DNA of 64,000 nucleotides from assembly GCF_000006985.1 (NCBI RefSeq), contig NC_002932.3, positions 395,501-459,500 on the forward strand, read 5' to 3'. Under the pieces are notes generated by a model, which had not been told where the DNA came from, ran no database searches, and worked only from the letters and a program-made list of their open reading frames with translations. Position 1 is the stretch's first letter. Each line of letters starts with the position of its first letter. Shown here piece after piece: positions 26,540 through 54,004 of this stretch. The position numbers and the translations under genes are program-made. This DNA is from Chlorobaculum tepidum TLS. Its GTDB lineage: Bacteria > Bacteroidota > Chlorobiia > Chlorobiales > Chlorobiaceae.

Positions 26540-26750
26540 ACAGGTGCCGGTTTAAAAGCCGGAGAATAGGGAAGTACGTGAGATTCGTACACTGTACCCG
26601 CAACTGTACAACGGTTAACCGCCGGGCAAATTCCGTGGCCACACGGATGCGCAAGGCGGGCTTTCAGGTCACTGCCGGTTTTCCTCCACGGAAAACTGCG
26701 GGAAGGTTTGGAGGCGCTCGATGCCGTGAAAGTCAGGAGACCTGCCAGTC
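26540..26750 (+). promoter_or_regulatory. cobalamin riboswitch 2 (upstream of corrinoid uptake/chelatase cluster)
   Basis: It contains GGTGCCGGTTTAAAAGCCGG (P2/P3 start), the core AGAATAGGGAAGTACGTGAG, TACACTGTACCCGCAACTGTA (B12-box-like with conserved CCCGC-ACTGTA), a variable peripheral region, and the closing AAAGTCAGGAGACCTGCC. It precedes the ferredoxin-btuFCD-cbiZ-cobN cluster with an intervening ~540 bases, and probably shuts that cluster off when adenosylcobalamin is available. Confidence 0.93.
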
Positions 26751-26752
26751 AT

Positions 26753-27288
26753 GCATTTGCACCAATAACGGACTACGGGTTTATAGTCTCAGGCAAAGAT
26801 TCATGTGAAAATCGTGCTTCACCCATTTGTCGTCTCGACACCTGCTCATCAGGCCGCCAACCGCGGTAAGTCTTGAGCCTTGCTTCCGGTTGCGCTTCAG
26901 CCAGTTCGGGGCGTAGTTTTGCTTTGGGTTGGCCGTTGCGGTTTTTCGTTGCTTCTTTTGTATGGTTCACCTTGCCTGAACAGAATCCTGTAGATCAGTT
27001 GATCGGTTTTTTTCACTGATAACAGGTACATGGATGGCCAGAATTCTCTTCTCTCTCGTCGGCACTTCCGCCAATGTTGTACGGAGCGCAGTGCTCACTT
27101 CTTTATTTCATCCGTTCAATTCAGATCGGCTTCGACCGGTCACGCCTTTTTCTGCATCAGCCCGCCGCGTTTTTCGGCAAGGGCGGAATCAAGGGTTGCG
27201 CTGACCATTTCAGTTTCTCCGTCAGGGCCTCCTGCCATGGTGTGGTGGTGGTGGGAGGGCTGACGCAATTATCAAATCTGGATTTTCC
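26753..27288. other. long leader between riboswitch 2 and first gene
   Basis: About 535 bases separate the aptamer from the first confident start codon. Frames at 26773-26970 (minus) and 27030-27263 (plus) lack domain signatures and good start signals. The stretch is unusually long for a riboswitch expression platform and may hold a decayed gene. I see nothing definite. Confidence 0.4.
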
Positions 27289-27591
27289 ATGAACGACAAG
27301 AATCAAAGAAGAAAACGTCGCCTGACTGTTCCCCGTGCAGAGATCGCCTGGTATCCGGTGATCGATGCCGAGCTGTGTAACAGTTGTCTGTCATGCTACA
27401 ACTATTGCCCGAAGGATGTTTTCGCTTCGGCAAAAGCGGAGGAGGGGCTGCGGCGGCGACCGAAAATGGAGGTGGCCAACCCTTACCGGTGCATCGTGCT
27501 CTGTTCGGCTTGTGAGCAGGAGTGTGCAGCGGGCGCGATCTCGTTTCCCTCGCCTGAGGAGTTCGAGCAGTTTGTTGAATATCTCGACTGA
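27289..27591 (+). CDS. ferredoxin-like 4Fe-4S protein
   Basis: A 100-residue cytoplasmic protein with two cysteine groups: CNSCLSCYNYCPKDVF (four Cys, typical bacterial ferredoxin spacing) and CIVLCSACEQECAAGAI, a second set with CxxxCxxCxxxC spacing. A basic N-terminus (NQRRKRR) precedes the cluster domain. It is the first gene of the riboswitch-2 transcript and is followed by the BtuF-like gene after 6 bases. Inference: it could supply electrons for corrinoid cobalt reduction or for the radical SAM enzyme encoded further down. Confidence 0.8.
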   Translation: MNDKNQRRKRRLTVPRAEIAWYPVIDAELCNSCLSCYNYCPKDVFASAKAEEGLRRRPKMEVANPYRCIVLCSACEQECAAGAISFPSPEEFEQFVEYLD

Positions 27592-27597
27592 ACGGTG

Positions 27598-28806
27598 ATG
27601 GCTCGATTCTACATAAGCATCAGACGTTTTGGCGCACTGCCGGTTCTTGGCGTCATTTTGTTGCAGGCGGCATTGCTCGCGGGATGCGGTACGCCTTCTG
27701 GCGGAAAACAGCATTCGACGAGCGTGGCGTCCGCTCCGGATTCTCTCAAGAGCTCTATCGGGTATTCGCGGCGCTTCAGGCTTTTTCGCCGGGGTGAGGT
27801 TACGGTGCTGGAGGTCATGGCCGGTCAAAAAGCTTACCCTGATACGCTTCGGTACCTTCTGGTTCCGGAGGGCAGGCCTCAACCTTCGGGTTTTGTTGGT
27901 TACACAGTCATTCGCACGCCGGTCAAGCGGATTGCCGTATTTTCCACCACGCATATCGGTTTTCTCGATATGCTCGGCAGGAGTGACGGCATTATCGGGG
28001 TTTCCCGTCCCGAGTTTGTCAACACCCCTGCGGTCAGATCCCGCATAAGGAGCGGAGCGATCAAAGCGATCGGCATGCCGTTCAGTCCCGATGTCGAGGC
28101 TCTGCTGAATCTGGAGCCCGATCTGGTTATCGCGCCGGCGCTTCCCGCGGCCCGGAAGACCGATTATCAGGCGCTTGTCCAGGCGGGCATTCCGGTGCTC
28201 GTCGTTGCCGAATGGCTGGAGCCGTCGCCTCTCGGGCGCGCCGAGTGGATCAAGCTTTTCGGCGCGCTTGTCGGCAAGGAGAAACTTGCCCGCGAGCGGT
28301 TTGCTGCGATTGAATCTTCGTACCTGAAGATCGCCGCGCTTTCCCGTAACCTGCCGAACCGCCCAACCGTGCTGACCGGCCTGCCGGTGAAGGATGCCTG
28401 GTATGTCCCGACGGGCGGAAGCTACGTGGCGGCCATGCTTCGTGATGCAGGGGCCTCGTACCACTGGCGTGATCTGCCCGGAACCGGAAGCGTGCCGCTT
28501 ACGATTGAGGCGGTCTGGCCGGTTGCGCTCGAAGCTGAGTACTGGCTGAATACCGGAACGGTCTCCACTCTCGATGAGTTGCTGGCCGTCGATTCCCGTT
28601 TCGGGCAGATGCGGTCGGTCAGGGAGCGGCGAGTCTGGAACAACAACCGGCTGGTCAACGCAGCGGGCGGCAATGCTTACTGGGAGAGTGGCGTGGTCAG
28701 GCCTGACCTGATTCTAAAGGATCTGGTGATGATTCTTCATCCGGGTCTTCTTCGCGCTCACGGTATCGGTGAGGGTGAACTCACCTTTTTCCAGGAGGTG
28801 AAGTAA
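27598..28806 (+). CDS. BtuF/FecB-type substrate-binding lipoprotein 1
   Basis: Periplasmic binding protein of a B12/siderophore-class ABC importer, about 402 residues. The N-terminal signal ends in the lipobox LLAGC (Cys about residue 22), so it should be membrane-anchored. The class III fold is marked by KRIAVFSTTHIGFLDMLGR, LEPDLVIAPAL and the C-terminal RERRVWNNNRLVN / ARPDLILKDLVMILHPGLL-like segments. ATG 27598 overlaps no upstream gene and gives the best signal peptide (GTG 27595 is an alternative). The riboswitch and cbiZ suggest a corrinoid or related tetrapyrrole ligand. Confidence 0.88.
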   Translation: MARFYISIRRFGALPVLGVILLQAALLAGCGTPSGGKQHSTSVASAPDSLKSSIGYSRRFRLFRRGEVTVLEVMAGQKAYPDTLRYLLVPEGRPQPSGFVGYTVIRTPVKRIAVFSTTHIGFLDMLGRSDGIIGVSRPEFVNTPAVRSRIRSGAIKAIGMPFSPDVEALLNLEPDLVIAPALPAARKTDYQALVQAGIPVLVVAEWLEPSPLGRAEWIKLFGALVGKEKLARERFAAIESSYLKIAALSRNLPNRPTVLTGLPVKDAWYVPTGGSYVAAMLRDAGASYHWRDLPGTGSVPLTIEAVWPVALEAEYWLNTGTVSTLDELLAVDSRFGQMRSVRERRVWNNNRLVNAAGGNAYWESGVVRPDLILKDLVMILHPGLLRAHGIGEGELTFFQEVK

Positions 28807-28807: not shown

Positions 28808-29896
28808 ATGAGTAACGTTGCGGAACTTCGTGCCCCGGCCCATCCCTGGCCTTCGCTCGTGCCGAAAAGCGGCATGATCCTCTTTATGCTGATCCTGCTT
28901 GTGCTGCTCTTCATGCTCGACATTGCGCTCGGCTCGGTGTCGATTCCCCTGAAAAGCGTCGTGGCGATTCTGTTCGGAAGCGATCAGGAGCCTGTAGCCT
29001 GGCAGAAGATCGTGACGACGATCCGCCTGCCCAAGGCGATCACCGCGGTGATTGCCGGTGCTGCGCTCTCGGCGAGCGGCTTGCAGATGCAGACGCTCTT
29101 TCGCAATCCGCTGGCAGGCCCCTCGGTGCTTGGAATATCCGCCGGTGCGAGTCTCGGCGTCGCCATGGTGATGCTTGTGTCCGGATCGGCAGCCAATGCC
29201 TTCGCCATACGGCAACTGGGGCTGGGAGGGAGCTGGTTGATCGTGATTGCTTCATCGCTGGGAGCGGCAGCGGTGCTGCTGGTTGTGCTTGCCATCGCGG
29301 TCAAGATCAAGGATAACGTCGTGCTGCTGATTGTCGGCATCATGGTCGGCAATATTACGGTCTCTTTGATAAGCATCTGGCAGTATTTCAGTGAACCCGA
29401 GCAGATACAGGACTACCTTATCTGGACATTCGGCAGTCTCGGCGGTGTTCTGGGCAATCAGCTCTGGGTGCTCGGCATCGTTGTCGGGGCGGGGCTTCTC
29501 GTTTCATTCGCCGCATCGAAGCCGCTCAACGTGATGCTGCTTGGCGAAAATTACGCGAAAAGCCTCGGCATGAGCACCTTCTCTATCCGGATTACGGTGA
29601 TTGCCGCCACCAGCCTGCTGGCCGGAAGCGTGACCGGCTTTTGCGGTCCCATCGGCTTCATCGGCATCGCCGTGCCCCACCTGACCCGTTCGATTCTCAA
29701 CACCTCCGATCACCGTTTTCTCATGCCGAGTTCATGCCTGGTCGGGGCGATTCTGATGCTGGTCTGCGACATCATCGCGCAGATGCCGGGCAACCAGACA
29801 ACCTTGCCGATCAATGTCGTGACGGCGCTTATCGGTTCGCCGGTGGTGATCTGGGTGATCATTCGGCAGAGAAACCTCAAATCGTCATTTGCATGA
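28808..29896 (+). CDS. BtuC/FecCD-family ABC transporter permease
   Basis: Inner-membrane permease of 362 residues with about ten hydrophobic helices. Family signatures are LPKAITAVIAGAALSASGLQMQ (the conserved R-P/A-GA-L-G-Q region), NPLAGPSVLGISAGA, and the coupling-helix region GPIGFIGIAVPHLTR. A strong AGGAGGTG Shine-Dalgarno lies in the end of the binding-protein gene. The stop overlaps the ATG of the ATPase gene (ATGA). It works with the following ATPase and either of the two flanking lipoproteins. Confidence 0.93.
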   Translation: MSNVAELRAPAHPWPSLVPKSGMILFMLILLVLLFMLDIALGSVSIPLKSVVAILFGSDQEPVAWQKIVTTIRLPKAITAVIAGAALSASGLQMQTLFRNPLAGPSVLGISAGASLGVAMVMLVSGSAANAFAIRQLGLGGSWLIVIASSLGAAAVLLVVLAIAVKIKDNVVLLIVGIMVGNITVSLISIWQYFSEPEQIQDYLIWTFGSLGGVLGNQLWVLGIVVGAGLLVSFAASKPLNVMLLGENYAKSLGMSTFSIRITVIAATSLLAGSVTGFCGPIGFIGIAVPHLTRSILNTSDHRFLMPSSCLVGAILMLVCDIIAQMPGNQTTLPINVVTALIGSPVVIWVIIRQRNLKSSFA

Positions 29897-30978
29897 GCGA
29901 TAGCATGATACAGACTCGCAACCTTGCCATCGGCTACCAGTTGCGACAGCGGGAGTTCATCGCTTGGCGCAAACCGTCGCATCCGGCCTCGACAGTGGTG
30001 GCGGGCAGTATCAATCTCGATATCGCGTCGGGTGAGCTGGTCTGCTTGTTGGGGCCGAACGGATCGGGCAAATCGACCCTGATGCGAACGCTGGCCGGGG
30101 TGCAGCAGCCCCTTTCGGGATCGGTGCTGCTCAAGGGGCGTGACATGGCGGGGCTGCATCCCAAAGAGATAGCGAAGCTGTTGAGCCTTGTGCTGACCGA
30201 CCGGGTCATGACAGGCAATATGTCGGTCTATGCGCTGGTGGCGCTTGGCCGTTACCCTTACACCGGCTGGATGGGCACGCTGAGTGACGCGGACGAGGAG
30301 CTGGTGCGACGGGCCATTGAAACCACCGGAACGCGGGCGTTCGCACACCGGCATATCGGTGAATTGAGCGATGGCGAACGCCAGAAGGTGATGATCGCGC
30401 GGGCCATCGCGCAGGATACCCCCGTGATTCTGCTCGACGAGCCGACGGCGCATCTCGACCTGCCGAACCGGCTTGAAATCATCAGTCTTTTGAAACGCCT
30501 GGCCCGTGAAGAGGGCAAAGCGGTCGTGCTCTCGACGCACGAACTCGATCTGGCCTTGCAGGCCTCAGACAGGATATGGCTGATGAAACGCTCGGGCGAC
30601 CGCGTCTGTTCGATCGTGTCGGCCATCCCTGAATCCCTCGTGCTCGAAGGCCATCTTGAAAAGGCCTTTAGTCGCAACGGGTTCGAGTTCGATCAGTATT
30701 CCGGCTCATTTCGGTTCAGGCACGAAGGATCGAGCCAAGTTGGCCTTCTCGGCGATGGCGTCACGGCGTACTGGACCCGCCGAGCCCTCGAACGGGCCGG
30801 GTGTCGGGTCGTTCAGGGAGCATCGAACATCCGGCATGTTGAAATATCCGGCGACGAAAGCCGCAATATGCAGTGGCGGTTTTTTCCCGGAGAGAACGGA
30901 GAGCCGGTTGTTACCGGGAGCCTCGACGAGTTGTTGCGAGCCGTTGTCCGTTCGTCAAAAGAGAAGGAGGTTTCATGA
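29893..30978 (+). CDS. BtuD/FecE-family ABC transporter ATPase with C-terminal extension
   Basis: ATP-binding subunit of 361 residues. Walker A is LLGPNGSGKSTLM, the signature is LSDGERQKVMIARAIAQ, and Walker B is VILLDEPTAHLDL. Family members usually end near residue 260. Here about 100 further residues follow (FRHEGSSQVGLLGDGVTAYWTRRALERAGC and on), containing a small Gly-rich alpha/beta segment that resembles a regulatory or nucleotide-binding tail. ATG 29893 overlaps the permease stop. The longer upstream frame is a shadow of the permease gene. The last codons contain the Shine-Dalgarno of the second lipoprotein. Confidence 0.92.
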   Translation: MSDSMIQTRNLAIGYQLRQREFIAWRKPSHPASTVVAGSINLDIASGELVCLLGPNGSGKSTLMRTLAGVQQPLSGSVLLKGRDMAGLHPKEIAKLLSLVLTDRVMTGNMSVYALVALGRYPYTGWMGTLSDADEELVRRAIETTGTRAFAHRHIGELSDGERQKVMIARAIAQDTPVILLDEPTAHLDLPNRLEIISLLKRLAREEGKAVVLSTHELDLALQASDRIWLMKRSGDRVCSIVSAIPESLVLEGHLEKAFSRNGFEFDQYSGSFRFRHEGSSQVGLLGDGVTAYWTRRALERAGCRVVQGASNIRHVEISGDESRNMQWRFFPGENGEPVVTGSLDELLRAVVRSSKEKEVS

Positions 30979-32144
30979 ATCACATCAAAAGCTCCCTGCG
31001 CTGGGCTCTCTCTCTGATTATCGCGCTGCTCTTGTTTTCCATCCAGGCGTGCAAGCCATCGGAACATGCCAAAACCGCCTCCGGGACGGAGGCGAACGAG
31101 GCTGTTCCGCTGCGGTATGCGAAGCTTTTTACGATGAAGCGGGAGAACGGATGCACGCGGATCGATGTGTTTGCCGGCGAAAAAAACAGCTCGGTTCCCG
31201 TGGCGCGCTATCTGCTGGTGCCTCGCGGCAAGGCCGTTCCGGAGCACGACGCCGACATGCTTGTTGTGAAAACGCCGGTCAGGAGGCTGACCTGCGACAA
31301 CGGTCTTGAAGTGTCGTTTCTCGATCTGCTTGGCGCTTCCAAAGCGCTTGTCGGTGTATCGGGAAAGGTGCTCATCAGCCACGACCGCGTCCATCGCGCC
31401 ATCGACGACGGCACTCTTGCCGTGACCGGCTACGGGCGCTCGACGAACATGGAGACGTTGCTTGCCTTGAAGCCGGACGTCACGTTCATCATCACATCGT
31501 TTGGTGTTGACCTGCCATTCCGCCTCCGTTCGTACGGCATCACTCCCGGCCTTTTTTCGGCGTATCACGAAGAGCATCCGCTGGGGGTTGTCGAGTGGAT
31601 CAGGTTCATGGGGGCGTTTCTTGGCAAAGAGAGCTTGGCCGAAGCCATCTTCCGTGAAAAAGAGGCGGCCTATCTGGCGATGCAGCAAAGGGTTCGGAAA
31701 GTCCAAAAGCGTCCGACGGTCATCGCTGGTTACATGAGGAAGGGAACCTGGTCAACCATGACCGCGCCTCGCAGCTTCGTGACCATGCTCGATCATGCAG
31801 GAGCCGACTATCTCTTCAAGGAGCTGGAGCCGGAACGGGGTTATCTGTTGAGCGGAGAGGTCGCCATGCAGGCGGGCCAGCAGGCCGCGTTCTGGCTGAA
31901 CACCCACTCGCAAGCCTCGACGCTCCAGGAGGTGCTGACCGAGGACGGGCGATACGGCGAATTCAGAAGCGTGCGCGAAGGGCGGGTTTACAATAACAAC
32001 GGAAGCTGCTTCAGGAATGGCAAGACCAGGTACTGGGACATCGGCATGACCGAGCCTGACCAGATTCTGGCAGACCTTGTCGCCATCTTCCATCCAGAGC
32101 TGATGCCGGGCCATACACTTCGCTACTACAGGAGGCTTGAATGA
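30975..32144 (+). CDS. BtuF/FecB-type substrate-binding lipoprotein 2
   Basis: A second class III binding protein of 389 residues, with a signal peptide ending in the lipobox SIQAC. It shares with lipoprotein 1 the layout LVVKTPVRRLTC / LDLLGASKALVG / LLALKPDVTFI and the C-terminal SVREGRVYNNNGSC. The two are clearly paralogous but divergent. ATG 30975 overlaps the ATPase stop (ATGA) after GGAGG. Having two binding proteins around one permease/ATPase pair suggests two ligands or an alternative receptor. Neither ligand can be read from the sequence. Confidence 0.88.
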   Translation: MNHIKSSLRWALSLIIALLLFSIQACKPSEHAKTASGTEANEAVPLRYAKLFTMKRENGCTRIDVFAGEKNSSVPVARYLLVPRGKAVPEHDADMLVVKTPVRRLTCDNGLEVSFLDLLGASKALVGVSGKVLISHDRVHRAIDDGTLAVTGYGRSTNMETLLALKPDVTFIITSFGVDLPFRLRSYGITPGLFSAYHEEHPLGVVEWIRFMGAFLGKESLAEAIFREKEAAYLAMQQRVRKVQKRPTVIAGYMRKGTWSTMTAPRSFVTMLDHAGADYLFKELEPERGYLLSGEVAMQAGQQAAFWLNTHSQASTLQEVLTEDGRYGEFRSVREGRVYNNNGSCFRNGKTRYWDIGMTEPDQILADLVAIFHPELMPGHTLRYYRRLE

Positions 32145-32179: not shown

Positions 32180-33337
32180 ATGACAATAAACGTAATGAAG
32201 TTAGGAGTTTTTGGCAATGCGGAAGTCCATCGCAACGGCAAGATGATTTCGGTGCGTTTTCTCGCGCCGCACCGGGTTGTTTCGACCTGCCGGGTGCATG
32301 GCGGCCTGCGCGATGACCTCGACGGTGTGTTCAACCACCAGTCGTGCGAACCGGCAGGGCACATGCGCAAAGATATGAAAACCATTGTTGCTGAACCGGA
32401 GCGCTACCATCAGAGGTTGTGCCAACGGTATGGGGTTTCGGAGCTGAGCGCATCGCTCGGTACGGCGGCCAACATGAACCACGCGGCCATCGCCACACGC
32501 TCGTTCCGCGATCTTTCGGTAACGGCAATCTGCACCGGGGGCGTGGAGGGCAACGCGGGACGTGCGGGCGACCCCGCCTCGGTCTGGGAGGGCGAGACGG
32601 GGTTCGAGCCGCTGGACAAAAAGGGCGAAGAGCTGCCGGGCACGATCAACATGATGCTGCTCATCAACCGCGAACTGAGCCACGGTGCGATGGTGCGCAG
32701 CATCGTGACCGCGACCGAGGCCAAGAGCGCCGTATTGCAGGAGCTTGCGGTCTCGTCGCGCTACTCCGAGGGGCTGGCCACCGGCACCGGCACCGACCAG
32801 ATCGCGGTGGCCTGCGCGCTGGGTGGATCGCGTCCGCTCACTAGCGCGGGCAAGCACTCCAAGCTCGGCGAACTGATCGCACAAGCGGTGATCAATGCGC
32901 TGCGTGACACGCTTTCCCGCCAGAACTCCCTGACTCCGCAGAGCCAGCGCTCGGTCTATGAGCATATCCGGCGGTTTGGTGTAAGCAAAGAGGAGGTGAT
33001 GGAGATGGTTGCCGAGCGTTTGTCGCCGGATGAGAGCGAGGTGTTCAGGAAGAATTTCGGAGGCCTCGACCGCGACTCCATGACGGTGGCCGCGGCGTGC
33101 GCGCTGGTGCATCTGTACGACAAGCACGCCTGGGGTCTCTTGCCCGACTCCTGCATGGGCGAGATTTTCGTCATGCAGGGTGCGCTCTTCGCTGCGGCGG
33201 TTTCGCACCGGCAAGAGCGGATCGCAACGTACGCCGAACAGCTCGAAGCGGTCGGTTGGGGCGCTGGCCGGGAGGCACTGCTTTCACTTATCACAACCGC
33301 ATGGGCGCTGGGGTACGCCGACAAATGGAACGACTGA
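32180..33337 (+). CDS. cbiZ: CbiZ, adenosylcobinamide amidohydrolase, with C-terminal extension
   Basis: CbiZ cleaves the aminopropanol arm of cobinamide or pseudocobalamin to adenosylcobyric acid so imported corrinoids can be rebuilt. The family core is clear: STCRVHGGLR, LGTAANMNHAAIATR, ICTGGVEGNAGRAGDPA, NMMLLINRELSHGAMVRS and SSRYSEGLATGTGTDQIAVA. At 385 residues the protein carries about 135 extra C-terminal, mostly helical residues beyond the amidohydrolase domain. ATG 32180 follows the lipoprotein gene by 35 bases; ATG 32195 is an alternative. The stop overlaps the next gene by 13 bases. Confidence 0.9.
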   Translation: MTINVMKLGVFGNAEVHRNGKMISVRFLAPHRVVSTCRVHGGLRDDLDGVFNHQSCEPAGHMRKDMKTIVAEPERYHQRLCQRYGVSELSASLGTAANMNHAAIATRSFRDLSVTAICTGGVEGNAGRAGDPASVWEGETGFEPLDKKGEELPGTINMMLLINRELSHGAMVRSIVTATEAKSAVLQELAVSSRYSEGLATGTGTDQIAVACALGGSRPLTSAGKHSKLGELIAQAVINALRDTLSRQNSLTPQSQRSVYEHIRRFGVSKEEVMEMVAERLSPDESEVFRKNFGGLDRDSMTVAAACALVHLYDKHAWGLLPDSCMGEIFVMQGALFAAAVSHRQERIATYAEQLEAVGWGAGREALLSLITTAWALGYADKWND

Positions 33338-34884
33338 ATATCGCGCTTGTCCATCTGGCCGTCCGGCACGGCGAGCCGGAGCACAACCGCCGGGAGCTGA
33401 TCCGCCTCAACCGCCAGGCGGCTGAAGCTGGCGCAAGGATTATCGTGAACACCGAGCTGGCCGTCAGCGGCTACAGCTTCCGATCGCCGAAAGAGGTCGC
33501 CGCCGTTGCCGAACCGGTTGACGGCCCATCGGTTCAGGCGATGGCAGAAATTGCCGAAGCCGCGGGTTGCTACATCGTGCTCGGTTATCCCGAAATCGAT
33601 CCGTGCACCGGCATCTGCTACAACTCCGCCGCCGTGCTCGGCCAGGACGGAAAGCTGGTTCTCAATTATCGCAAGGTGACTGCTGAGGCGCGGTGGGCCT
33701 GTCCCGGCTCCCACATGCAGGAGAGCCTTTTCGAGACGCCGTGGGGCAGAGCCGCCGTGCTCATCTGCTCCGACAGTTATTACGGTCTCATTCCGAGGGC
33801 AGCTGCCCTGCGTGGAGCCGATCTTTTGCTGGTGCCAGCCAACTGGCCTGGTGGCTCACTCGATCCGAGGGAGCTCTGGCGGGCGCGAGCTTGCGAAAAC
33901 GGCTGTGCGCTGGTAGCCTGCAACCGCACCGGCAAGGATCGCACGATGGAGTGTTACGACGCAGTCTCTTGCGCCTATGGCGCCGATGGCTCGGTCATTG
34001 CCGAGCGCAGCTCACCTGACTCGGAGGTGTTTCATGTTGAGCTTCCCCTTTCGCGTGGAAAGCTGCGTTCGTCGAGCCGTGAACGTTTCGCATCGAGGAC
34101 GCCGGAACGGTACCGCTCGATCTATCTCGACATGCGTTATGCAAACGATATGACGAGCTGGCACAGCTTGCCCGAACCCGCTCCGGTGCAGGTGCACTGT
34201 CTGCACGAACTATACTTCGAGCCGGGCGACGTGTCGGTTCTCGACAGCCTGCTGCACGACCGCGAAAAGGCCGCGGGGCTGGTGGTGGTGCTGCCGATGC
34301 TTCGGGTTGCCAACCGTGAGGAGGCCGTCGGCTTCCTGCTGGATGTTGCACGGGCGCATGGCGCGGCGTTCTGCGCCGGGCTTGTGGATACGGACGGGGT
34401 GGCGGAGCTGATCTGCTGCCGCCCCGACGGCAGCGTGCATCGTCGGTGTCCGGAGCGTGACGACTTCGTGCTGATCGATCTCGATCATCTGCGCCTGACG
34501 CTGTTGTCCAAAGAGGAGTGCCGCCACCCGGAAGCGGTGACGGCACTCGCCAAAGAGGGGTGCGACCTGGCGGTGGTGCCCGAGACCGGATTCGACGAGG
34601 GCGACCGGGCCGTGCTCGGTTCCCGCTCTATCGAACAGCTTGCCATCGCGGCGTGCGGGCGCGACGTGTCGTTTATCTGCCTGCCGCCGGTCGATCACTA
34701 CCGCTGGGAGGAGGCCGTTGGCGAGGGGGTCGATGGAGCCTCCATGCTGATCGAGGTGGAAAAGCTGCGCCGCAAGCGCTTTTACGACCGGATCGACGTT
34801 GAGCTTTTGCTTGCGCGAAACGGGCGCTCGCCAGATGCCTGCCGGGCCGATGAAACCGGAAAGCGCGAGGAGGAAACGCCGTGA
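33325..34884 (+). CDS. nitrilase-superfamily carbon-nitrogen hydrolase, tandem domains
   Basis: A 519-residue protein. Domain 1 (about 1-265) has the complete Glu-Lys-Cys triad: Glu44 in NTELAVSGY, Lys117 in NYRKVTA and Cys148 in VLICSDSYYG. Domain 2 (about 285-505) appears to be a second copy of the fold. VLPMLRVANREEAVG and AKEGCDLAVVPETG align with the first domain, but the catalytic Cys position is replaced (KEECRHPEAV region, shifted). Domain 2 is therefore probably structural or regulatory. ATG 33325 lies inside the end of cbiZ. The family hydrolyses nitriles or amides, or transfers ammonia. A corrinoid side-chain amide is a tempting but unproven substrate. Confidence 0.82.
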   Translation: MERLNIALVHLAVRHGEPEHNRRELIRLNRQAAEAGARIIVNTELAVSGYSFRSPKEVAAVAEPVDGPSVQAMAEIAEAAGCYIVLGYPEIDPCTGICYNSAAVLGQDGKLVLNYRKVTAEARWACPGSHMQESLFETPWGRAAVLICSDSYYGLIPRAAALRGADLLLVPANWPGGSLDPRELWRARACENGCALVACNRTGKDRTMECYDAVSCAYGADGSVIAERSSPDSEVFHVELPLSRGKLRSSSRERFASRTPERYRSIYLDMRYANDMTSWHSLPEPAPVQVHCLHELYFEPGDVSVLDSLLHDREKAAGLVVVLPMLRVANREEAVGFLLDVARAHGAAFCAGLVDTDGVAELICCRPDGSVHRRCPERDDFVLIDLDHLRLTLLSKEECRHPEAVTALAKEGCDLAVVPETGFDEGDRAVLGSRSIEQLAIAACGRDVSFICLPPVDHYRWEEAVGEGVDGASMLIEVEKLRRKRFYDRIDVELLLARNGRSPDACRADETGKREEETP

Positions 34885-35894
34885 ACTGGCTGCTCAACAT
34901 CAGTACCCACGGTTCTGATCTGGAGATTGCCGGGCCGGAGTGGAGCGAAGCGGTCTCGCTGCTCCGGCGCACCGGCATGGACGGCTTCGAGCTGTACCCG
35001 GCTGGCGCGTACGACTGCACGGCGATTCCGAAAGAGATTGTCGGCGGAGTGCACCTGCGCTTTTTCGTCATGCTCCGCCAGATATGGCAGAACGACCGGG
35101 AGGGGTTGCTCCGCATGTTCGGCAGCGAACAGACCGTGCGCCACTACTACAGCGGCGTGAATCGCGAAGCCGTGATCTCGTGCTACCGTTCACAGCTCGA
35201 ACTGGCGGCCCGTTTCAATGTTCCCTATGTCGTCTTCCATCCCGTTCACTACGAGCTGGAGTATGTTTTCAACTGGCAGCCACCCTGGGGCTGGCGGGAG
35301 ACTGTCGATCTCTCGACGGAGATTATCAACGAGGTGGTGCGCGACACTCCGTACGATGGCTGGATTCTGTTCGAGAACCTCTGGTGGCCGGGCAACTTCC
35401 GGCTCGACAGCACGGATGAGATCGACCGCCTGCTCTCGAAAGTCCGGTGGCCGAAGTGCGGCATCGTGCTCGATACCGCCCATATTCTGAACAAGAATCA
35501 GGAGTTGCGAACTGAAGAAGAGGCGATTGCTTTTCTCTTGCGGCAAGTCGAGCGGCTCGGCGACTACCGCCAGCTCATCAAGGCGGTGCATCTCAGCAAG
35601 AGTCTGTCGGGCGAAGCGGCCAAGGCCGGATTTGCCAACGCCGATCCCTTTTGCGGCGCTCACGATTTCTGGCAGCGCTTCTCCATCGCTCTCCGCCATG
35701 TACGCGATCTGGATCGTCACGAGCCTTTTTCGCACTCCATGCTTGGCGAGCTGTTCGATCTCATCGAGCCGGACAACGTCGTGTTCGAACTTGCCTTCAG
35801 CTCCCTTGACGAGTGGATTGGCAAGATCGAACAACAGCAGCGGGCGTTACAACGCTTTTTTCCTGAATGCCGAATCAAGGAGAATTTGTATTGA
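34881..35894 (+). CDS. xylose isomerase-like TIM-barrel protein (AP endonuclease 2 superfamily)
   Basis: A 337-residue protein of the sugar phosphate isomerase/epimerase fold. A plausible metal-binding set is in place: Glu165 (ILFENLWW), Asp198 and His201 (VLDTAHIL), His237 (AVHLSKS) and Glu303 (VFELAFSS). His120 and His123 (VFHPVHYE) are additional candidates. This family includes isomerases, epimerases, dehydratases and metal-dependent oxygenases of peptides, so the reaction cannot be named. It overlaps the nitrilase-like gene by ATGA and the radical SAM gene by TTGA, implying tightly coupled production of the three proteins. Confidence 0.8.
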   Translation: MNWLLNISTHGSDLEIAGPEWSEAVSLLRRTGMDGFELYPAGAYDCTAIPKEIVGGVHLRFFVMLRQIWQNDREGLLRMFGSEQTVRHYYSGVNREAVISCYRSQLELAARFNVPYVVFHPVHYELEYVFNWQPPWGWRETVDLSTEIINEVVRDTPYDGWILFENLWWPGNFRLDSTDEIDRLLSKVRWPKCGIVLDTAHILNKNQELRTEEEAIAFLLRQVERLGDYRQLIKAVHLSKSLSGEAAKAGFANADPFCGAHDFWQRFSIALRHVRDLDRHEPFSHSMLGELFDLIEPDNVVFELAFSSLDEWIGKIEQQQRALQRFFPECRIKENLY

Positions 35895-36928
35895 ACAATC
35901 ACCGGATTTCATCGCTCATGCTCGTCGTCACCACAGCATGTAATCTCGATTGCGCCTATTGCTACGAAGGCGGCGGCAACGGTCAGGGAGAGATGATGGA
36001 TCTCGATACGGCTCTGCGTGCGCTCGATCTGGTGGCCGCATCGAACCAGCCCTTCCATGTGCAGCTGACCGGCGGCGAGCCGCTGCTTGCCGGAGAGCTT
36101 GTTTTCAGAATTCTGGAGTATATCAGAAACAACAATCTGCCCGCTACTACCGCCATCCAGACCAACGGCGTGCTGCTCGACCATCAGACCGCCCGCCGTT
36201 TGCACTCGTTTGGCACCGCTGTCGGGGTCAGCGTCGATGGACTGCCCGCCATTCAGGAGCAGCTTCGTGGCCAGGGCGCTGCAACCTGGAAAGCCCTCGC
36301 CATGCTCGACAGCGAGCGGGTGCCGTTTTCAGTCACGACGGTTTTGTCGTCGCGCAATACCCGCGACTTATCAACGCTCGGCATGGCGCTGCATTCGATG
36401 CCGGCGGCCTCGGCTATCGGCCTGGATCTGCTGGTGCAAAAAGGCTCTGCGGCGGCGAAAATTGGCGTGCAGCCACCGGATGCCGTCACGATCCGCAGCG
36501 GCGTCACCCGCCTGCTCGCCACGCTCGATGTGCTGAATGCGCAGCGGAGCCGTCCTCTCATTTTGCGCGAACGGCAGACGGTGCTCAAGGCGCTCGGTCG
36601 CGATGAAGCTCGTCCCTACTGCCAGGCCTGCACCGGTTCGAGCCTCGCCGTCACGCCGCGCGGTGAACTCTATCCCTGCACCCAAACGCTCGGTGATGCC
36701 CGCTTCCACCTCGGTACGCTCGATCATCCCCGTCTCTCCGGCACGGCGCTGCCCGACGGGCGGTTGCCGAAGCGCGAGGAGTGTGCCGGATGCGGGCTTC
36801 AGGGGCGTTGCCCTGGCGACTGTCCGTCGCGTTTGCACTACAACGGCGCTGACGGGGCCGGTCTGGTCTGCGCTCTCTATCGAACCATCTGCGACTATTG
36901 TCTGTACAAAGGAGAGATACCATCATGA
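35891..36928 (+). CDS. radical SAM protein with SPASM-like C-terminal cysteine domain
   Basis: A 345-residue protein with the radical SAM cluster motif CNLDCAYC (Cys17, Cys21, Cys24) and the GGEP motif in QLTGGEPLLAG. The C-terminal cysteine-rich region (CQACTGSSLAVTPRGELYPC, then CAGCGLQGRCPGDC and CDYC) is SPASM-like and should hold auxiliary Fe-S clusters. SPASM proteins often modify peptides, and some act on small molecules. I chose TTG 35891 because AAGGAG lies 8 bases before it and it overlaps the upstream stop as TTGA. ATG 35867 has no such signal. No precursor peptide gene is seen nearby. Confidence 0.85.
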   Translation: MNNHRISSLMLVVTTACNLDCAYCYEGGGNGQGEMMDLDTALRALDLVAASNQPFHVQLTGGEPLLAGELVFRILEYIRNNNLPATTAIQTNGVLLDHQTARRLHSFGTAVGVSVDGLPAIQEQLRGQGAATWKALAMLDSERVPFSVTTVLSSRNTRDLSTLGMALHSMPAASAIGLDLLVQKGSAAAKIGVQPPDAVTIRSGVTRLLATLDVLNAQRSRPLILRERQTVLKALGRDEARPYCQACTGSSLAVTPRGELYPCTQTLGDARFHLGTLDHPRLSGTALPDGRLPKREECAGCGLQGRCPGDCPSRLHYNGADGAGLVCALYRTICDYCLYKGEIPS

Positions 36929-39900
36929 AACCAATCTCGCTCTGCTATTTCTGTGTCAACCCCTCCGAAATCTCCACGCTCAGCGCCGGACTCAGGCGCT
37001 ACAACGACGGAGGCGGTCAGGCGGAACTCAAGGCCCGCATCGCCGCGCAGCTCTCCACGCCGGAGCAGATCGCCGTGTTCGCCCGCGCCGCAGCCTCGGC
37101 GGATGCGGTCATTATCCGACTCATGGGCGGCAAGGCCTCCTTTCCCGCATTCGACGCTTTTCTCGAAGCGTTAGCCGAACGGCGCGAAGCGGGCCAGGCT
37201 ACGCCGCTCATTCTGATTTCCGCCGGAGGGGGTGACGACGAAGCTGCCGAACTGGCCCAGCAGCACAGCGCCCTGTATGGCACCGAAGCGGGCGACAGGC
37301 TCCGGCGCTACATCCAGAACGGCGGCGTTATCAACGTGGCCAACATGCTCCGTTATCTGCACCATCTGATCCACGGCGGCGAAAACGACGCCGACGAGCC
37401 GGTCGAGATGCCTCACGAGGGCATCTATCATCCCGACTGGCCAGCGTTCGACGACTTCGAGGGGTACCTGGCAAAGCATGTCGATCCGTCCAAACCTACG
37501 GTCGGCCTCTGGTTCTACCAGAACTACTTCGTCGATGGCGATCTGGCCGCGTATGATTATCTCATCCGCCAGGTCGAAGAGCGAGGGGCCAACATCATCG
37601 CTGTTTTCCACCACCGTTACCGCGACGCGATGCGGGGAAACAAGGGGGCCGATTACGTGGCCGAACGCTACTTCCGCCGCCCGGATGGCACAAGCCGCAT
37701 CGATGTGCTCGTCAATCCGATGCTCTTCGCCCTGTCGATGGCTTCGCCAGAGTACCGGAGTATTCTTCCGGGCCTCGACGTGCCGTTCCTGCAAGCCTTC
37801 AACACCTTCCAGAGCCGCGAGCAGTGGCGGGAGAGCATTCAGGGACTCGGCACGATGGAGGTCTCCTACAACGCCGCGCAGCCCGAATTCGACGGTGCGC
37901 TCATGACCGTGCCCTTTTCGACGCGCGAGAACATGGGCATCGATCCGCTCACCGGAGGCGAAGTGCTCAGGATCATGCCGGTCGAAGAGCGCGTCTCGAA
38001 GCTGGCCGACATGGCGCTCCGCTGGGCGGCGCTGCGGCGCAAACCGAACGCCGACAAGCGCATCGCCATCATCTTCCACCACTACCCGCCGCGTAACGAC
38101 CGCATCGGGTGTGCTGTCGGTCTCGACAGCTTCGAGAGCATCAGGCTGCTGCTCGAACGGATGGCGGCGGAGGGCTACGTGGTCGAGCGACAGTACGAAA
38201 ACGGCGACGAGCTGGCAAAAGAGCTTGTTACCCGAATGACCTGCGACCGACGCTGGCTCACCCCGGAGCAGATGGCCGAAAAAGCGGAAGCCAAGGCAGG
38301 CTCGAAGTTGTTCCAGCCCTGGCACGAAGCGTTGCCCGCAGCGGTGAAGCAAAAGATGGTGAAAAATTGGGGCGAGATGCCGGGAGAGCTGTTCGTGCAC
38401 GACGAGGAACTGCTCTTTCCGGGTACGATCAACGGCAACGTCTTTATCACCATCCAGCCGTCGCGGGGAAGCATTGAGCGTCAGGATCAGATGCTGCACG
38501 ATCCCGACATTCCGCCGCCGCACCACTATCTGGCCCACTACCGCTGGATCAGAGATGTCTTCAAGGCAGACGCTGTCATGCACGTCGGTAAGCACGGCTC
38601 GCTCGAATGGCTGCCGGGCAAGGCACTCGGACTGTCGGAGGAGTGCTATCCCGATCTGTCGATCATGGATCTGCCGAACATCTACCCCTACATCATCAAC
38701 GATCCGAGCGAGGGGACGCAGGCCAAGCGGCGCTCGAATTGCTGCATCATCGACCACATGACGCCGGTCTTCACCAACGCCGACCTGTACGAAGAGATGG
38801 CGGTGCTCGAAGGCCACCTGCGGAGCTACGCCGAGGCGCGCAACAGCGATCCCGGCAAGCTCGACGTGCTGCGCCCGATGATCTGGGATGCGGTGCTCGC
38901 AGCCGATCTCGACAAGGACACCGGGTACACCCGCGAAAAGGCGTTTGCCGATTTTGACAAATTTCTCGAAGTGCTGCACTCCGCGCTCGACGAGATTGCC
39001 GATACCATGATTTCCGACGGCTTGCACACGATGGGCGTCGCGCCCGATGGCGACCGGCTGGTCGAGCTGCTCGTTCAGCTCACCCGTCTCGAACAGGGCA
39101 GCGTACCGTCACTGCGCGAGTCGATTGTTACGGCGATGGGCTTTAATTATGACGAACTGCTTGGTCGCAAGGGGGAGCCGGTTTTTGGCCCGACCTCCGA
39201 GACCGGCGGGGAGATGATCCGTCGTGCTCATGAACACGCGCTCGCGATGGTGAAGCTGCTCTCGGCGAACGGCTACTCAACACAAGCTCCCGAGTTCGTT
39301 CAGGCTGAACTGCCCGCACTCGTGACGCCCGATGTGATGGCCGCTCTCCGCTACATCTGCGACGACCTCGTGCCGCGTCTCTTGAAAGTGACCGACGAAA
39401 TCGACGCCTCCCTGAAAGGCTTTGCCGGGCGCTTTGTCGATCCCGGCCCGTCCGGCGCTCCCACCCGCGGGCAGGCCGACATCCTGCCGACCGGGCGCAA
39501 CTTCTTCTCCATCGATCCCCAGCGTATTCCCACGCCTGCCGCCTGGAAGGTCGGGTGCAGCCTCGGCGACGCCCTCGTCCAGCGCTACCTCGCAGAGAAG
39601 GGGGAGTATCCCCGCAACATCGGCATCATCCTGTTCGGCGGCGCGACCATGCGCTCCGGCGGCGACGATCTTGCCGAAATCTTCTACCTCATGGGCGTAC
39701 GACCGGTCTGGAAGAAGGGTAGCGGGTATGTCCAGGGGGTCGAGATCATTCCGCTGAACGAACTTGGCAGGCCGAGGCTCGATGTGACGCCCCGCATCTC
39801 CGGCTTTTTCCGTGACGCTTTTCCGCTGCTGGTCGAGCGTATCGATGATGCGGTCAGAATGGTCGCCGCGCTCGACGAGCCGCTCGAAAGCAACCTCTTG

Positions 39901-40704
39901 CGCCGCAACGTGCTTGCTGACGTCGAGGAGTACCGGAAGCAGGGCATGAACGACGAGGAGGCGCTGCGCGAAGCGTCGTTCCGCGTCTTCGGTTGCCCTC
40001 CTGGCACCTATGGGGCGGGCGTTTCGGAGCTGATCGAATCGAAAAACTGGCAGACGCAGGGCGATTTGGCGGCCAACTACATCCGCTACTCCTCCCACGC
40101 CTACGGGCGCGGATCGTACGGCCAGCAGAAACCCGACACCTTCAAGCGGGTGCTCTCCCGCATGGACGCCACGGTCAAGAACGAGGACAGCCGCGAGTAC
40201 GACATGTTTTCTTGCACCGACTACTACAACTACTACGGCGGCCTCATCACGGCGGCCAAGAGTCAGCGCGGCGGCGAGTTGCCCGAAGCCTTCATGGGCG
40301 ACAGTTCCGATCCGAACCGGGTGCAGGTGCGCACCACATTCGAGGAGGCAAAGCACATTTTCCGCTCCCGCCTGCTCAATCCCAAATGGCTCGACGGCCT
40401 CAAACGGCATGGTTACAAAGGCGCGGGCGACATCTCCAAGGTGCTCGACATCATCCTCGGCTGGGACGCCACCGCCGAGGTGGTCGATGACTGGATGTAC
40501 GAGCGCGTGGCCGGGAAGTATGTCTTCGACGAGGAGATGAAAAAGTGGATGGAGGAGGTCAATCCCTACGCCCGCCAGAACATTCTCGACAAGCTGCTCG
40601 AAGCGATCAGCCGGGGCATGTGGAACGCCACGGACGAGATGAAGCAGCGTTTGCAGGAGGAGTACCTCGAAACCGAAGGGCAGCTGGAGGAGATCAACGA
40701 ATGA
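36925..40704 (+). CDS. cobN: CobN-like cobaltochelatase large subunit 1
   Basis: Large tetrapyrrole-binding subunit of a class I (ATP-dependent) chelatase, about 1259 residues. CobN hallmarks are IAIIFHHYPP, LDSFESIRLLLERMAAEGY, the catalytic block MHVGKHGSLEWLPGK with His553 and His557, and DLPNIYPYIINDPSEGTQAKRR. CobN inserts cobalt into a corrin ring together with two AAA subunits; here these should be the ChlD- and ChlI-like proteins encoded downstream. ATG 36925 follows GGAGAG and overlaps the radical SAM stop. The KHG motif points to CobN rather than BchH. Since CbiK serves de novo synthesis, the in vivo substrate is open. Confidence 0.9.
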   Translation: MKPISLCYFCVNPSEISTLSAGLRRYNDGGGQAELKARIAAQLSTPEQIAVFARAAASADAVIIRLMGGKASFPAFDAFLEALAERREAGQATPLILISAGGGDDEAAELAQQHSALYGTEAGDRLRRYIQNGGVINVANMLRYLHHLIHGGENDADEPVEMPHEGIYHPDWPAFDDFEGYLAKHVDPSKPTVGLWFYQNYFVDGDLAAYDYLIRQVEERGANIIAVFHHRYRDAMRGNKGADYVAERYFRRPDGTSRIDVLVNPMLFALSMASPEYRSILPGLDVPFLQAFNTFQSREQWRESIQGLGTMEVSYNAAQPEFDGALMTVPFSTRENMGIDPLTGGEVLRIMPVEERVSKLADMALRWAALRRKPNADKRIAIIFHHYPPRNDRIGCAVGLDSFESIRLLLERMAAEGYVVERQYENGDELAKELVTRMTCDRRWLTPEQMAEKAEAKAGSKLFQPWHEALPAAVKQKMVKNWGEMPGELFVHDEELLFPGTINGNVFITIQPSRGSIERQDQMLHDPDIPPPHHYLAHYRWIRDVFKADAVMHVGKHGSLEWLPGKALGLSEECYPDLSIMDLPNIYPYIINDPSEGTQAKRRSNCCIIDHMTPVFTNADLYEEMAVLEGHLRSYAEARNSDPGKLDVLRPMIWDAVLAADLDKDTGYTREKAFADFDKFLEVLHSALDEIADTMISDGLHTMGVAPDGDRLVELLVQLTRLEQGSVPSLRESIVTAMGFNYDELLGRKGEPVFGPTSETGGEMIRRAHEHALAMVKLLSANGYSTQAPEFVQAELPALVTPDVMAALRYICDDLVPRLLKVTDEIDASLKGFAGRFVDPGPSGAPTRGQADILPTGRNFFSIDPQRIPTPAAWKVGCSLGDALVQRYLAEKGEYPRNIGIILFGGATMRSGGDDLAEIFYLMGVRPVWKKGSGYVQGVEIIPLNELGRPRLDVTPRISGFFRDAFPLLVERIDDAVRMVAALDEPLESNLLRRNVLADVEEYRKQGMNDEEALREASFRVFGCPPGTYGAGVSELIESKNWQTQGDLAANYIRYSSHAYGRGSYGQQKPDTFKRVLSRMDATVKNEDSREYDMFSCTDYYNYYGGLITAAKSQRGGELPEAFMGDSSDPNRVQVRTTFEEAKHIFRSRLLNPKWLDGLKRHGYKGAGDISKVLDIILGWDATAEVVDDWMYERVAGKYVFDEEMKKWMEEVNPYARQNILDKLLEAISRGMWNATDEMKQRLQEEYLETEGQLEEINE

Positions 40705-41464
40705 AGTTTTCCGTTACCTGCATCATGACAGCGATGCTTATGTCGGTCGCCCCTGCGGATGTGGTGCGTGCTTCCGGGCGCGGCGATGAGTTCGGCGCGG
40801 AGTTCGACGGGCTGGAGAGCCGGAGCTGGTACAGGGAAACAACCACCAGCAACAGCGACTCCGATCGAGACTTCTTTTCGCGACTCCGGGTGAAGTCGGC
40901 GGGCCAGACCCTGAAAAGGCAGGTGTCGCAAATCGAGCTGAACGCGGGCAGCAGCAGTAACCTGCCCACCTTCCGGCAACGCTACAACGAGACCTCCACG
41001 ACCCGCTCCAACCCCGACTTGCAGAGGGAGCGGGCCGTGAAGACCGGCCTTGCCCTGTCGTTTGCGCCGTCGGAGAAGCTGACCTTCACCTGGAAGCCCG
41101 CCGCATGGCTCGAACTGACCCCATCGTACCTCTACCAGCACGCCCGCAATGAAGAGACCGGCCTCTGGCTGCCGCCATTCCATTCCATACCCTGTCGGGA
41201 CAGATCGTGCTCAAACCTGTCAGCCGTCTCTCCATTCGCGCCGACCTGAAATACACAGGCGAGGTCTATGCCCGCCCGGACAACGTCGAGCGCCAGCCAG
41301 GCTACGGGCTGGTGGATCTGCGCGTGGAATATCGGGCGGGCGCGATGCAACTCTCTCTCGATGTCGATAACCTGCTCGACCGCGAGTATCTCTATGTCGA
41401 TGGCTATGACGCGCCGCCCCGTGAGTGGAAGATTGGCATGAACTACACTTTCTGTCTGAACTGA
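40701..41464 (+). pseudogene. truncated, frameshifted TonB-dependent receptor remnant
   Basis: The ATG overlaps the cobN stop (ATGA). A signal peptide (VTCIMTAMLMSVAPADVVRA) is followed directly by C-terminal barrel pieces, including NPDLQRERAVKTGLALSF and LELTPSYLYQHAR. The plug domain and most of the barrel are missing. Near 41182-41195 the frame shifts: the homologous sequence continues in another frame as TLSGQIVLKPVSRLSIRADL through NLLDREYLYVDGYD to the stop at 41464. The remnant looks like an internally deleted outer-membrane receptor that once belonged to this operon, now perhaps replaced by the receptor at 48701. Confidence 0.82.
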
Positions 41465-41468: not shown

Positions 41469-43418
41469 ATGAAAAGAAAATATTTCCCGTTTTCGGCCAT
41501 TCTCGGCCAGGAGGATCTCAAAAAAGCGTTGCTGCTCAATGCCGTCAATCCCCGCATTGGCGGTGTGCTGGTGCGCGGCGAGAAGGGCACGGCCAAATCG
41601 ACCGCCGTCCGGGCGCTCGGCGCACTGCTTGCCGCAGCGAGGAACGGCAGCGGTGGTGAAGGCGAGGTGGTCGTGACGCTGCCGCTCAACGCCACCGAGG
41701 AGATGGTGGCCGGAGGCATCGATTTCCAGCAGACCATGAAGGAGGGGCGGCGCGTATTCCAGCCGGGCCTGCTCGCCAAAGCCCACAAGGGGATTCTGTA
41801 TGTCGATGAAGTGAACCTGCTTGATGACCATCTGGTCGATATCGTCCTCGATGCGGCTTCCTCCGGCGAGAACCGCGTCGAGCGCGAAGGGATCACCCTC
41901 AGCCATCCCTCCCTTTTCGTGCTGGCCGGTACGATGAATCCCGAGGAGGGCGAGCTGCGCCCGCAGTTGCTCGACCGTTTCGGACTCTGCGTGGAGGTGC
42001 GCGGCGAGGCCGATCCAGCGCTTCGCGTCGATCTGATGTTGCGCAGGGAGGCGTTCGACCGTGAGCCTGAAGAGTTTTCGGAGAGGTATCGTGCCGAGGA
42101 GGAGCGGCTTGGGCGAACTATTGCCGATGCGCAGTCGCTTCTGCCGTCAGTCAGGATTCCGTCGCATTTGCGCGGCTTCATTTCGGAGCTGTGCCGGAAC
42201 AGCAATGTCGCCGGGCACCGGGCAGACCTGGTGATCGAGCAGGCGGCGCGGGCCAACGCCGCTCTGCGCGGGTCGCGCGAGGTGTCGGTGGAGGATGTCA
42301 CGAAGGTCGCGGGCTTTGCGCTCGTGCATCGCCGCCGCGATCCGGTTCCGCCGCCCGAACAGAAGCCGCAGGAGCCGGAGCGCCAGGAGGAGCAGTCGCG
42401 TGACGAGCAGTCCCGGCAGGAGAAGCCGGAAGAGCGTGGCGATGAGCCGCAGCAGCCACAGGAGGGCGACGACAGGCGGGACGGCAACGACGATTCCGGC
42501 AATGAAGAGAGGTCGCAGCCAGAAAACAGGGATGCCGCCGAACAGCAGGAGCGGCCCGATAACGAAGGTCAGGACGAGCTGTTCAGCATCGGCCAGTCCT
42601 TTCGTGTTCGCAGCATCGCCACTCCGAAAGATCGCAAGATGCGGCGCGGCTCCGGAAAGCGTTCGCGGTCGCGGGTTTCGCAGAAGCAGGGGCGCTATAC
42701 CAAGAGCACCATGCCGCGCGGCAACAACGACATAGCGCTCGACGCCACGCTCAGGGCCGCCGCGCCGTTCCAGCGCCATCGTGAAAACCCCAACGGCATG
42801 GCGGTGGTGTTGCAGAACGAGGATATCCGCGAAAAGATCAGGGAGAAGCGCCTCGGCAACCTGCTGATTTTCGTGGTCGATGCGAGCGGTTCGATGGGCG
42901 CGCGGGGCCGCATGGCCGCCTCGAAAGGGGCGGTCATGTCGCTCTTGCTCGACGCTTACCAGAAGCGCGACAAGCTGGCGATGGTCTCGTTCCGCAAGAA
43001 TGAGGCGTTCGTCAATCTGCCGGTCACCTCCTCCATCGAGCTTGCCGCCCGGATGCTCAAGGAGATGCCGGTGGGCGGGCGCACCCCCTTTTCCGCCGGT
43101 CTGCTCAAGGGGTACGAAATCGCTCAAAACTATCTCCGCAAAGAGCCGGGCGGACGACCGCTTATCATCCTTGTCACCGACGGCAAAGCGAATCGGGCCA
43201 TCGGGCAGGGCAAGCCGCTCGACGAAGTGTTCACCATCTCCGAAAAGATTTCCCGCGAGGAGCGAATCCGCTTTCTCGTCGTCGATACCGAAGAGCCTGG
43301 TCTGGTCACTTTTGGTCTCGCCAAAAAAATCGCCGGTCTGCTCGATGCCTGGTACTACCGCATCGACGACTTGCGTGCAGACACCCTTGTTTCCATCGTA
43401 AAAACCATGATGCCATGA
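41469..43418 (+). CDS. ChlD/BchD-like chelatase subunit with AAA and VWA domains
   Basis: A 649-residue AAA-VWA protein. The AAA part keeps an intact Walker A (GEKGTAKST, 37-45) and Walker B ([12 protein letters not shown]), unlike many magnesium-chelatase D subunits in which these are degenerate. A Pro/Glu/Asp/Arg-rich linker spans about 300-370. The C-terminal VWA domain has the MIDAS motif VVDASGSMGA beginning near Asp471. In class I chelatases this subunit bridges the AAA ring and the large CobN/ChlH subunit. The stop overlaps the ATG of the ChlI-like gene. Confidence 0.9.
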   Translation: MKRKYFPFSAILGQEDLKKALLLNAVNPRIGGVLVRGEKGTAKSTAVRALGALLAAARNGSGGEGEVVVTLPLNATEEMVAGGIDFQQTMKEGRRVFQPGLLAKAHKGILYVDEVNLLDDHLVDIVLDAASSGENRVEREGITLSHPSLFVLAGTMNPEEGELRPQLLDRFGLCVEVRGEADPALRVDLMLRREAFDREPEEFSERYRAEEERLGRTIADAQSLLPSVRIPSHLRGFISELCRNSNVAGHRADLVIEQAARANAALRGSREVSVEDVTKVAGFALVHRRRDPVPPPEQKPQEPERQEEQSRDEQSRQEKPEERGDEPQQPQEGDDRRDGNDDSGNEERSQPENRDAAEQQERPDNEGQDELFSIGQSFRVRSIATPKDRKMRRGSGKRSRSRVSQKQGRYTKSTMPRGNNDIALDATLRAAAPFQRHRENPNGMAVVLQNEDIREKIREKRLGNLLIFVVDASGSMGARGRMAASKGAVMSLLLDAYQKRDKLAMVSFRKNEAFVNLPVTSSIELAARMLKEMPVGGRTPFSAGLLKGYEIAQNYLRKEPGGRPLIILVTDGKANRAIGQGKPLDEVFTISEKISREERIRFLVVDTEEPGLVTFGLAKKIAGLLDAWYYRIDDLRADTLVSIVKTMMP

Positions 43419-44458: not shown

Positions 44459-44477
44459 TCGTCAAATCCGTACCAAC

Positions 44478-48230: not shown

Positions 48231-48264
48231 GAAAAAGTAGCAACTGACAATAAATAATTCAGTT

Positions 48265-53998: not shown

Positions 53999-54004
53999 GC
54001 CAAC

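Follow-up and report, generated by a model that had tools for sequence, protein, structure and literature searches.

Why does a gene for a nitrilase-like protein, followed by genes for a TIM barrel and for a radical S-adenosylmethionine (SAM) enzyme, stand between the vitamin B12 genes cbiZ and cobN in the green sulfur bacterium Chlorobaculum tepidum TLS? The three genes lie on the forward strand at 33325..34884 (519 amino acids, aa), 34881..35894 (337 aa, GTG start) and 35891..36928 (345 aa, TTG start) of the window, the stretch of 64,000 nucleotides analysed here, which spans positions 395501-459500 in a genome that forms one contig of 2,154,946 bp. The original prediction, made from the letters of the window alone, regarded them as a coupled trio of unknown chemistry that might modify a corrin side chain, a lower ligand or a peptide. 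The domains, active-site residues, operon layout, riboswitches, co-occurrence with CbiZ and two-module split that can be read from the DNA lead us to suspect that the genes are part of a cobalamin-riboswitch operon that imports and remodels cobamides and is built from two modules, a reading to which we assign a probability of roughly 55%. That the enzymes act somewhere in a pathway of B12 salvage or remodelling is considerably safer and in our judgement very likely, and any specific substrate named for the nitrilase or the radical SAM enzyme would be doubtful. Cobamide remodelling decides which forms of B12 a microbe is able to use, and at this locus, in an apparently well-studied species, CbiZ is linked both to a radical SAM-CobN pair and to two enzyme families whose active sites can be read.

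The three open reading frames (ORFs) between cbiZ and cobN are intact and overlap as predicted, with 4 shared bases at each of the nitrilase/TIM, TIM/radical SAM and radical SAM/CobN junctions, and Pfam confirms their domains: PF00795 (CN_hydrolase) for the nitrilase (124.8 bits against a gathering cut-off of 23.2, E 4.8e-36), PF01261 (AP_endonuc_2) for the TIM barrel (65.5 against 31.1 bits, E 7.8e-18) and PF04055 (Radical_SAM) for the third protein (60.9 bits, E 2.2e-16). At the cbiZ/nitrilase junction the overlap is longer: it measures 13 bases, without variation, in the seven loci that are readable there (the window, L001, L014, L016, L017, L018 and L074). Chance ORFs can be ruled out because the active sites are intact in sequences from different families of the Chlorobiales that share 36-55% identity. 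A cobalamin riboswitch (26525..26763, forward strand; Rfam RF00174, 79.8 bits, E 5.1e-18) lies upstream, and the spacing of the genes from there to a second CobN-like gene is consistent with a single operon.

Systematic genome searches covered a sample of 394 genomes of the Bacteroidota, the phylum of the window in GTDB. CbiZ was found in nine of these genomes, and the TIM barrel in eight of the nine and in none of the remaining sample; in the ninth (G125), cbiZ is present, but the contig breaks off after residue 205 of the nitrilase. Within a smaller, shared sample the genomes with the nitrilase were the same as those with CbiZ, and in a smaller sample the radical SAM enzyme and the window-type CobN occurred in the same five genomes. 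Naive odds for overlaps of this kind are tiny, but such odds ignore shared ancestry, and a better argument is the patchy pattern within two families, with CbiZ present in only 4 of 31 Chlorobiaceae in a 148-genome sample. Wherever homologues were examined in Chlorobiales genomes, their setting was a B12 locus: in all loci read, the nitrilase gene comes after cbiZ and the TIM-barrel gene is next, either directly or beyond inserted cbi genes, and cobalamin riboswitches precede the loci where this is visible. The link to corrinoid metabolism that had been proposed is thus upheld by the gene setting, the riboswitches and the co-occurrence with CbiZ; the finding named in advance as its refutation, homologues mainly outside B12 loci and with a known function, did not turn up in the Chlorobiales genomes. 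Because the genes belong to a B12-controlled uptake operon and are confined to CbiZ-bearing relatives, the three enzymes probably help to dismantle and rebuild scavenged B12-like cofactors.

Beyond this sample, a single scan of genome contigs returned near relatives only, the nearest named ones being Chlorobaculum parvum and Candidatus (Ca.) Chlorobium antarcticum; a search of viral contigs found no relatives, and a search of plasmid records found two distant TIM-barrel orphans. The cbiZ/cobN regions already described for Ca. Chlorobium antarcticum (PMC8620254) concern the same species and gene neighbourhood, and belong there to an accessory, low-coverage part of a population genome. That paper discusses cbiZ, cobN and the transporters, and the terms nitrilase and radical SAM are absent from its main text. 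The remodelling loci of the Rhodobacter sphaeroides type likewise have cbiZ in one operon with Btu-type transporter genes, whereas in the Chlorobiales cbiZ is followed by the nitrilase gene and then, directly or after cbi genes, by that for the TIM barrel.

The same comparisons do not sustain the idea of an obligate trio. In a Chloroherpeton-like genome (G005), the order BtuF-cbiZ-nitrilase-TIM is found at about 2.665 Mb, and a second operon, BtuF-BtuC-BtuD-TonB-BtuF2-radical SAM-CobN-BtuB-ChlD-ChlI, is found at about 2.93 Mb, each headed by a separate cobalamin riboswitch (L016 13257-13457 and L072 18070-18277, respectively). Two other genomes (G145 and G295) carry a cbi operon inserted between the nitrilase and TIM-barrel genes. 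These layouts suggest that the nitrilase and the TIM barrel belong with CbiZ (module 1) and the radical SAM enzyme with CobN (module 2), and the separate riboswitches indicate that the nitrilase-TIM pair remains under B12 control even after relocation.

Chemistry is most readily suggested for the TIM barrel. Instead of the five-residue metal site that had been proposed, it has nine invariant metal-type ligands (H58, H120, E165, D198, H201, H237, D278, H280 and E303), whose residue types are the same in ten sequences, down to relatives from Fusobacterium and Acetoanaerobium at 25-29% identity. The nine match the tri-metal pattern of endonuclease IV (Nfo), D-T-x-H and D-x-H included, with H120, E165, D198, H201 and H237 aligning by profile and H58, D278, H280 and E303 by motif (HDSYL, DRHE, LETP); the TIM barrel differs from Nfo in its place in a B12 operon. 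Comparison with endonuclease IV by hhalign gave 88-95% over the central strands, and the top Foldseek match was endonuclease IV of T. maritima (2x7v, E 1.2e-9). A profile search of the PDB with the TIM alignment gave no useful match. Since an endonuclease IV-type site points to phosphodiester hydrolysis, the label of unknown chemistry was too pessimistic for this protein. A function is suggested by CbiR, an enzyme of the same AP endonuclease 2 superfamily that breaks cobamides by hydrolysis at their phosphoribosyl bond (Mok et al. 2020, PMC7733943). Common to the TIM barrel and CbiR (NF041277) are PF01261, metal-type His, Asp and Glu residues and adjacent cobamide genes. Chlorobi often have homologues of CbiR. 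In the two Chloroherpetonaceae, a TIM barrel of the window type is present and no match to CbiR is found.

Several observations weigh against the assignment, or against the wider reading of which it is a part. VIA-align places sugar isomerases and related folds level as matches for the TIM barrel (Z 18-20), so the fold alone cannot decide its chemistry; the Foldseek order and the nine-ligand set instead favour phosphoesters. The protein has no match to the CbiR model NF041277 (cut-off 105 bits) at E 0.001, reaches at best E 0.051, in two of six members, under a relaxed threshold, and has an hhalign probability of 0.2-0.4% against the CbiR of Chlorobiaceae, and a genuine CbiR is encoded elsewhere in the same genome (892546-893307, 278.5 bits). 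We therefore rejected the possibility that it is CbiR. Also rejected was a DNA-repair endonuclease IV, as the score against the model TIGR00587 is 18.4 bits (E 0.0011), far under the cut-off of 129.65, and a proper Nfo is found in the genome at 332312-333133. With both CbiR and Nfo already present, a second phosphodiesterase must differ from them in substrate or timing. Finally, the radical SAM gene is separable from module 1, and no B12 gene is recognised beside the TIM-barrel relatives in Fusobacterium (L065 15001-15951) and Acetoanaerobium (L066 15001-15966); the records in question (2.1 and 2.6 Mb) are labelled plasmids and look like chromosomes. On balance we infer phosphodiester chemistry from the site and consider a phosphodiesterase an even bet; the enzyme may act in the manner of CbiR without being CbiR.

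The amidohydrolase-like triad predicted for the nitrilase is complete, E44-K117-C148 of the catalytic N-terminal domain being invariant in six of six homologues. In a structure model with a predicted local distance difference test score (pLDDT) of 79.9, residues 1-265 superimpose on the PH0642 amidase (6ypa) with a Z of 31.6 and a root-mean-square deviation of 2.5 over 254 residues. The complete Glu-Lys-Cys triad is shared with superfamily amidases such as PH0642 and Nit2, from which the window protein differs by an additional C-terminal domain. This second half (about residues 270-495) has no Pfam match, but the predicted order of its strands and helices and an in-register profile match to the first half, though weak (28% probability), suggest that it is probably a degenerate nitrilase-fold domain lacking the catalytic residues.

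Few enzymes are known to initiate cobamide remodelling, namely CbiZ, CbiR and the CobS of Vibrio. We infer that module 1 takes part in this process, where it would deal with the nucleotide loop and the amide side chains. CbiZ would cut the amide that holds the aminopropanol linker, and the three-metal site of the TIM barrel would hydrolyse the ribose-phosphate bond, before or after the action of CbiZ. The substrate could be the intact cobamide, yielding cobinamide-phosphate and alpha-ribazole as in the CbiR reaction. Alternatively, the TIM barrel may act on aminopropanol-phospho-riboside released by CbiZ and thereby provide aminopropanol-phosphate, reusable by CbiB. The nitrilase presumably hydrolyses a corrinoid-related amide, which may be the f-amide of a form that CbiZ refuses or else a peripheral amide. 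The pieces would then re-enter assembly via CbiB, CobU and CobS. These re-assembly enzymes and CobD are encoded in the genome, with an adjacent adenosyltransferase match just under its cut-off, in a late cobamide cluster (L073; G000:C1:885000-900000) that also has BluB-like, CbiP-like and BtuC/D-like ORFs and the gene for CbiR. The organism therefore has both CbiR and CbiZ, and for genomes with homologues of both, the role in remodelling was described as unknown by Mok et al. (PMC7733943).

Module 2, with the radical SAM gene directly before cobN and followed by ChlD, ChlI and a second CobN, would be concerned with the macrocycle or its metal. As predicted, the radical SAM protein is a SPASM enzyme: the core CxxxCxxC (C17, C21, C24) and seven SPASM cysteines (C244, C263, C298, C301, C307, C311 and C327) are all present and invariant in four of four homologues. 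Wherever the junction can be read, its gene lies directly 5' of that for CobN, and the CobN-type chelatase large subunit of the window (36925..40704, forward strand; PF02514) scores 986.6 bits with TIGR02257 (cut-off 822). The target of the radical SAM enzyme may be CobN itself or, with CobN as its partner, the macrocycle or its metal. The enzyme has the core motif and the complete seven-cysteine SPASM pattern in common with PapB, AnSME and AhbD/NirJ, but differs from them in that it is coupled to CobN and that no precursor peptide is seen. Relatives in plasmid records lie beside ferritin-like genes.

A different assignment of roles would make the locus a system for salvaging unusual or damaged corrinoids, such as cobalt-free corrins from neighbouring purple sulfur bacteria, in which the nitrilase would adjust side-chain amides, the radical SAM enzyme would repair or alter the macrocycle, and CobN with ChlD/ChlI would insert cobalt into the imported ring. 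Upstream in the window, cbi genes on the minus strand include a CbiK-like gene, with a further cobalamin riboswitch at 14111-14322, so that CobN is probably not needed for cobalt insertion in the de novo anaerobic pathway; CobN, ChlD and ChlI then need another job, and the constant position of the radical SAM gene directly upstream of cobN is in keeping with one on the ring. Cobalt insertion into exogenous cobalamin was earlier suggested for C. tepidum, as cited in PMC8620254, and some cobalt-starved purple sulfur bacteria make cobalt-free corrinoids (PMC6771967). Nothing in the sequence identifies such a substrate, however, and we consider this explanation unlikely. The known substrate of CobN is hydrogenobyrinic acid a,c-diamide, and we know of no CobN that uses a complete corrin.

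It is improbable that the nitrilase and the TIM barrel are ordinary amide or sugar enzymes that merely travel with a mobile B12 island. The patchy distribution would fit such cargo, as would the integrase-like and mobile-gene-like ORFs that adjoin the operon in G169, and, among plasmid records, the closest relatives of the nitrilase with a similar length belong to a urea-type transporter locus. On the other hand, the conserved 13-base overlap with cbiZ, the strict co-occurrence with CbiZ in two families and the separate riboswitches where the locus is split argue that the two genes are tied to B12.

Corrinoid breakdown for the recovery of cobalt, by analogy with the HmuS heme de-chelatase operons of Bacteroidota, is quite improbable. 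Loci of the hmu type contain a TonB receptor, a binding protein, a permease and a CobN-like protein. The kinds of genes in our operon resemble these heme-uptake loci, but the HmuS motif LSLDHxxEFMGG (PMC12583661) is absent from both CobN-like proteins of the window, and the CobN next to the radical SAM gene occurs together with ChlD/ChlI and scores above the cobaltochelatase cut-off. Moreover, an operon behind a cobalamin riboswitch should be expressed during B12 scarcity, which is when the destruction of corrinoids would be harmful. Modification of a peptide or protein by the SPASM enzyme, whether akin to the making of ribosomally synthesized and post-translationally modified peptides or as a maturation step for another protein of the operon, CobN for example, is very improbable, as the nearest family models (PapB, Nif11-type and sulfatase maturase) are indeed peptide or protein maturases but are all far under their cut-offs (97.9 against 340 bits for PapB), and the earlier doubt about a peptide is justified in that no precursor gene is seen and the overlapping genes leave no space for one.

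We thus favour the import and remodelling of cobamides by two modules. A bolder version, which we put forward only tentatively, is that CbiZ-based remodelling in green sulfur bacteria needs two dedicated partners, a nucleotide-loop phosphodiesterase from an AP endonuclease 2 branch other than that of CbiR and a two-domain nitrilase-fold amidase, and that a separate radical SAM-CobN pair edits the macrocycle or its metal, so that both the ring and the lower ligand are remodelled. If the radical SAM-CobN pair does act on scavenged corrinoids, B12 salvage would gain a new layer in the form of metal or ring editing.

The other genes of the putative operon are also on the forward strand. It opens with a ferredoxin-like ORF of 100 aa (27289..27591), recognised by its frame and cysteine pattern, which has tblastn matches at 70-71% identity in L014 and L020 and none in the other loci searched, those of Chloroherpetonaceae among them, and no NCBIfam match at E 1e-20; it is a possible electron donor, for example for the radical SAM enzyme. 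A first BtuF-type periplasmic binding protein (27595..28806; PF01497, E 1.9e-21), a BtuC-type permease (28808..29896; PF01032, E 1e-75), a BtuD-type ATPase (29893..30978; PF00005, E 1.2e-29) and a second BtuF-type protein (30975..32144; PF01497, E 5.2e-17) come next. The adenosylcobinamide amidohydrolase CbiZ (32180..33337; PF01955, E 2.9e-63) has a C-terminal extension of ~140 residues (window 32900-33337) that is conserved across Chlorobiales homologues; this fragment has no Pfam match beyond the tail of the CbiZ domain itself.

Downstream of cobN, three-frame translation reveals a frameshifted and shortened remnant of a TonB-dependent receptor gene (40701..41464), for which relatives have full-length ORFs of 571-630 aa at the same position, between CobN and ChlD. 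There follow a ChlD-like chelatase subunit (41469..43418; TIGR02442, 807 bits), a ChlI-like chelatase ATPase (43415..44458; TIGR02442, 484.8 bits, under the cut-off, and TIGR02030, 439.7 bits) and the second CobN-like protein (44418..48230, start uncertain; NF004646, 920 bits, and TIGR02257, 672 bits, both under the cut-off). The operon thus carries two CobN-type subunits to one ChlD and one ChlI. Another cobalamin riboswitch (48249..48470; RF00174, 107.6 bits) precedes the next TonB-dependent receptor gene (48494..50833; PF00593 and PF07715). In another Chlorobaculum genome (L074 4066-5202), the operon is followed by integrase-like and mobile-element-like ORFs, which hints at an integrated island. 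Farther along the window, at 53162-62422, lies a Tad/Flp-type pilus assembly locus with CpaB, secretin, T2SSE, T2SSF and prepilin peptidase.

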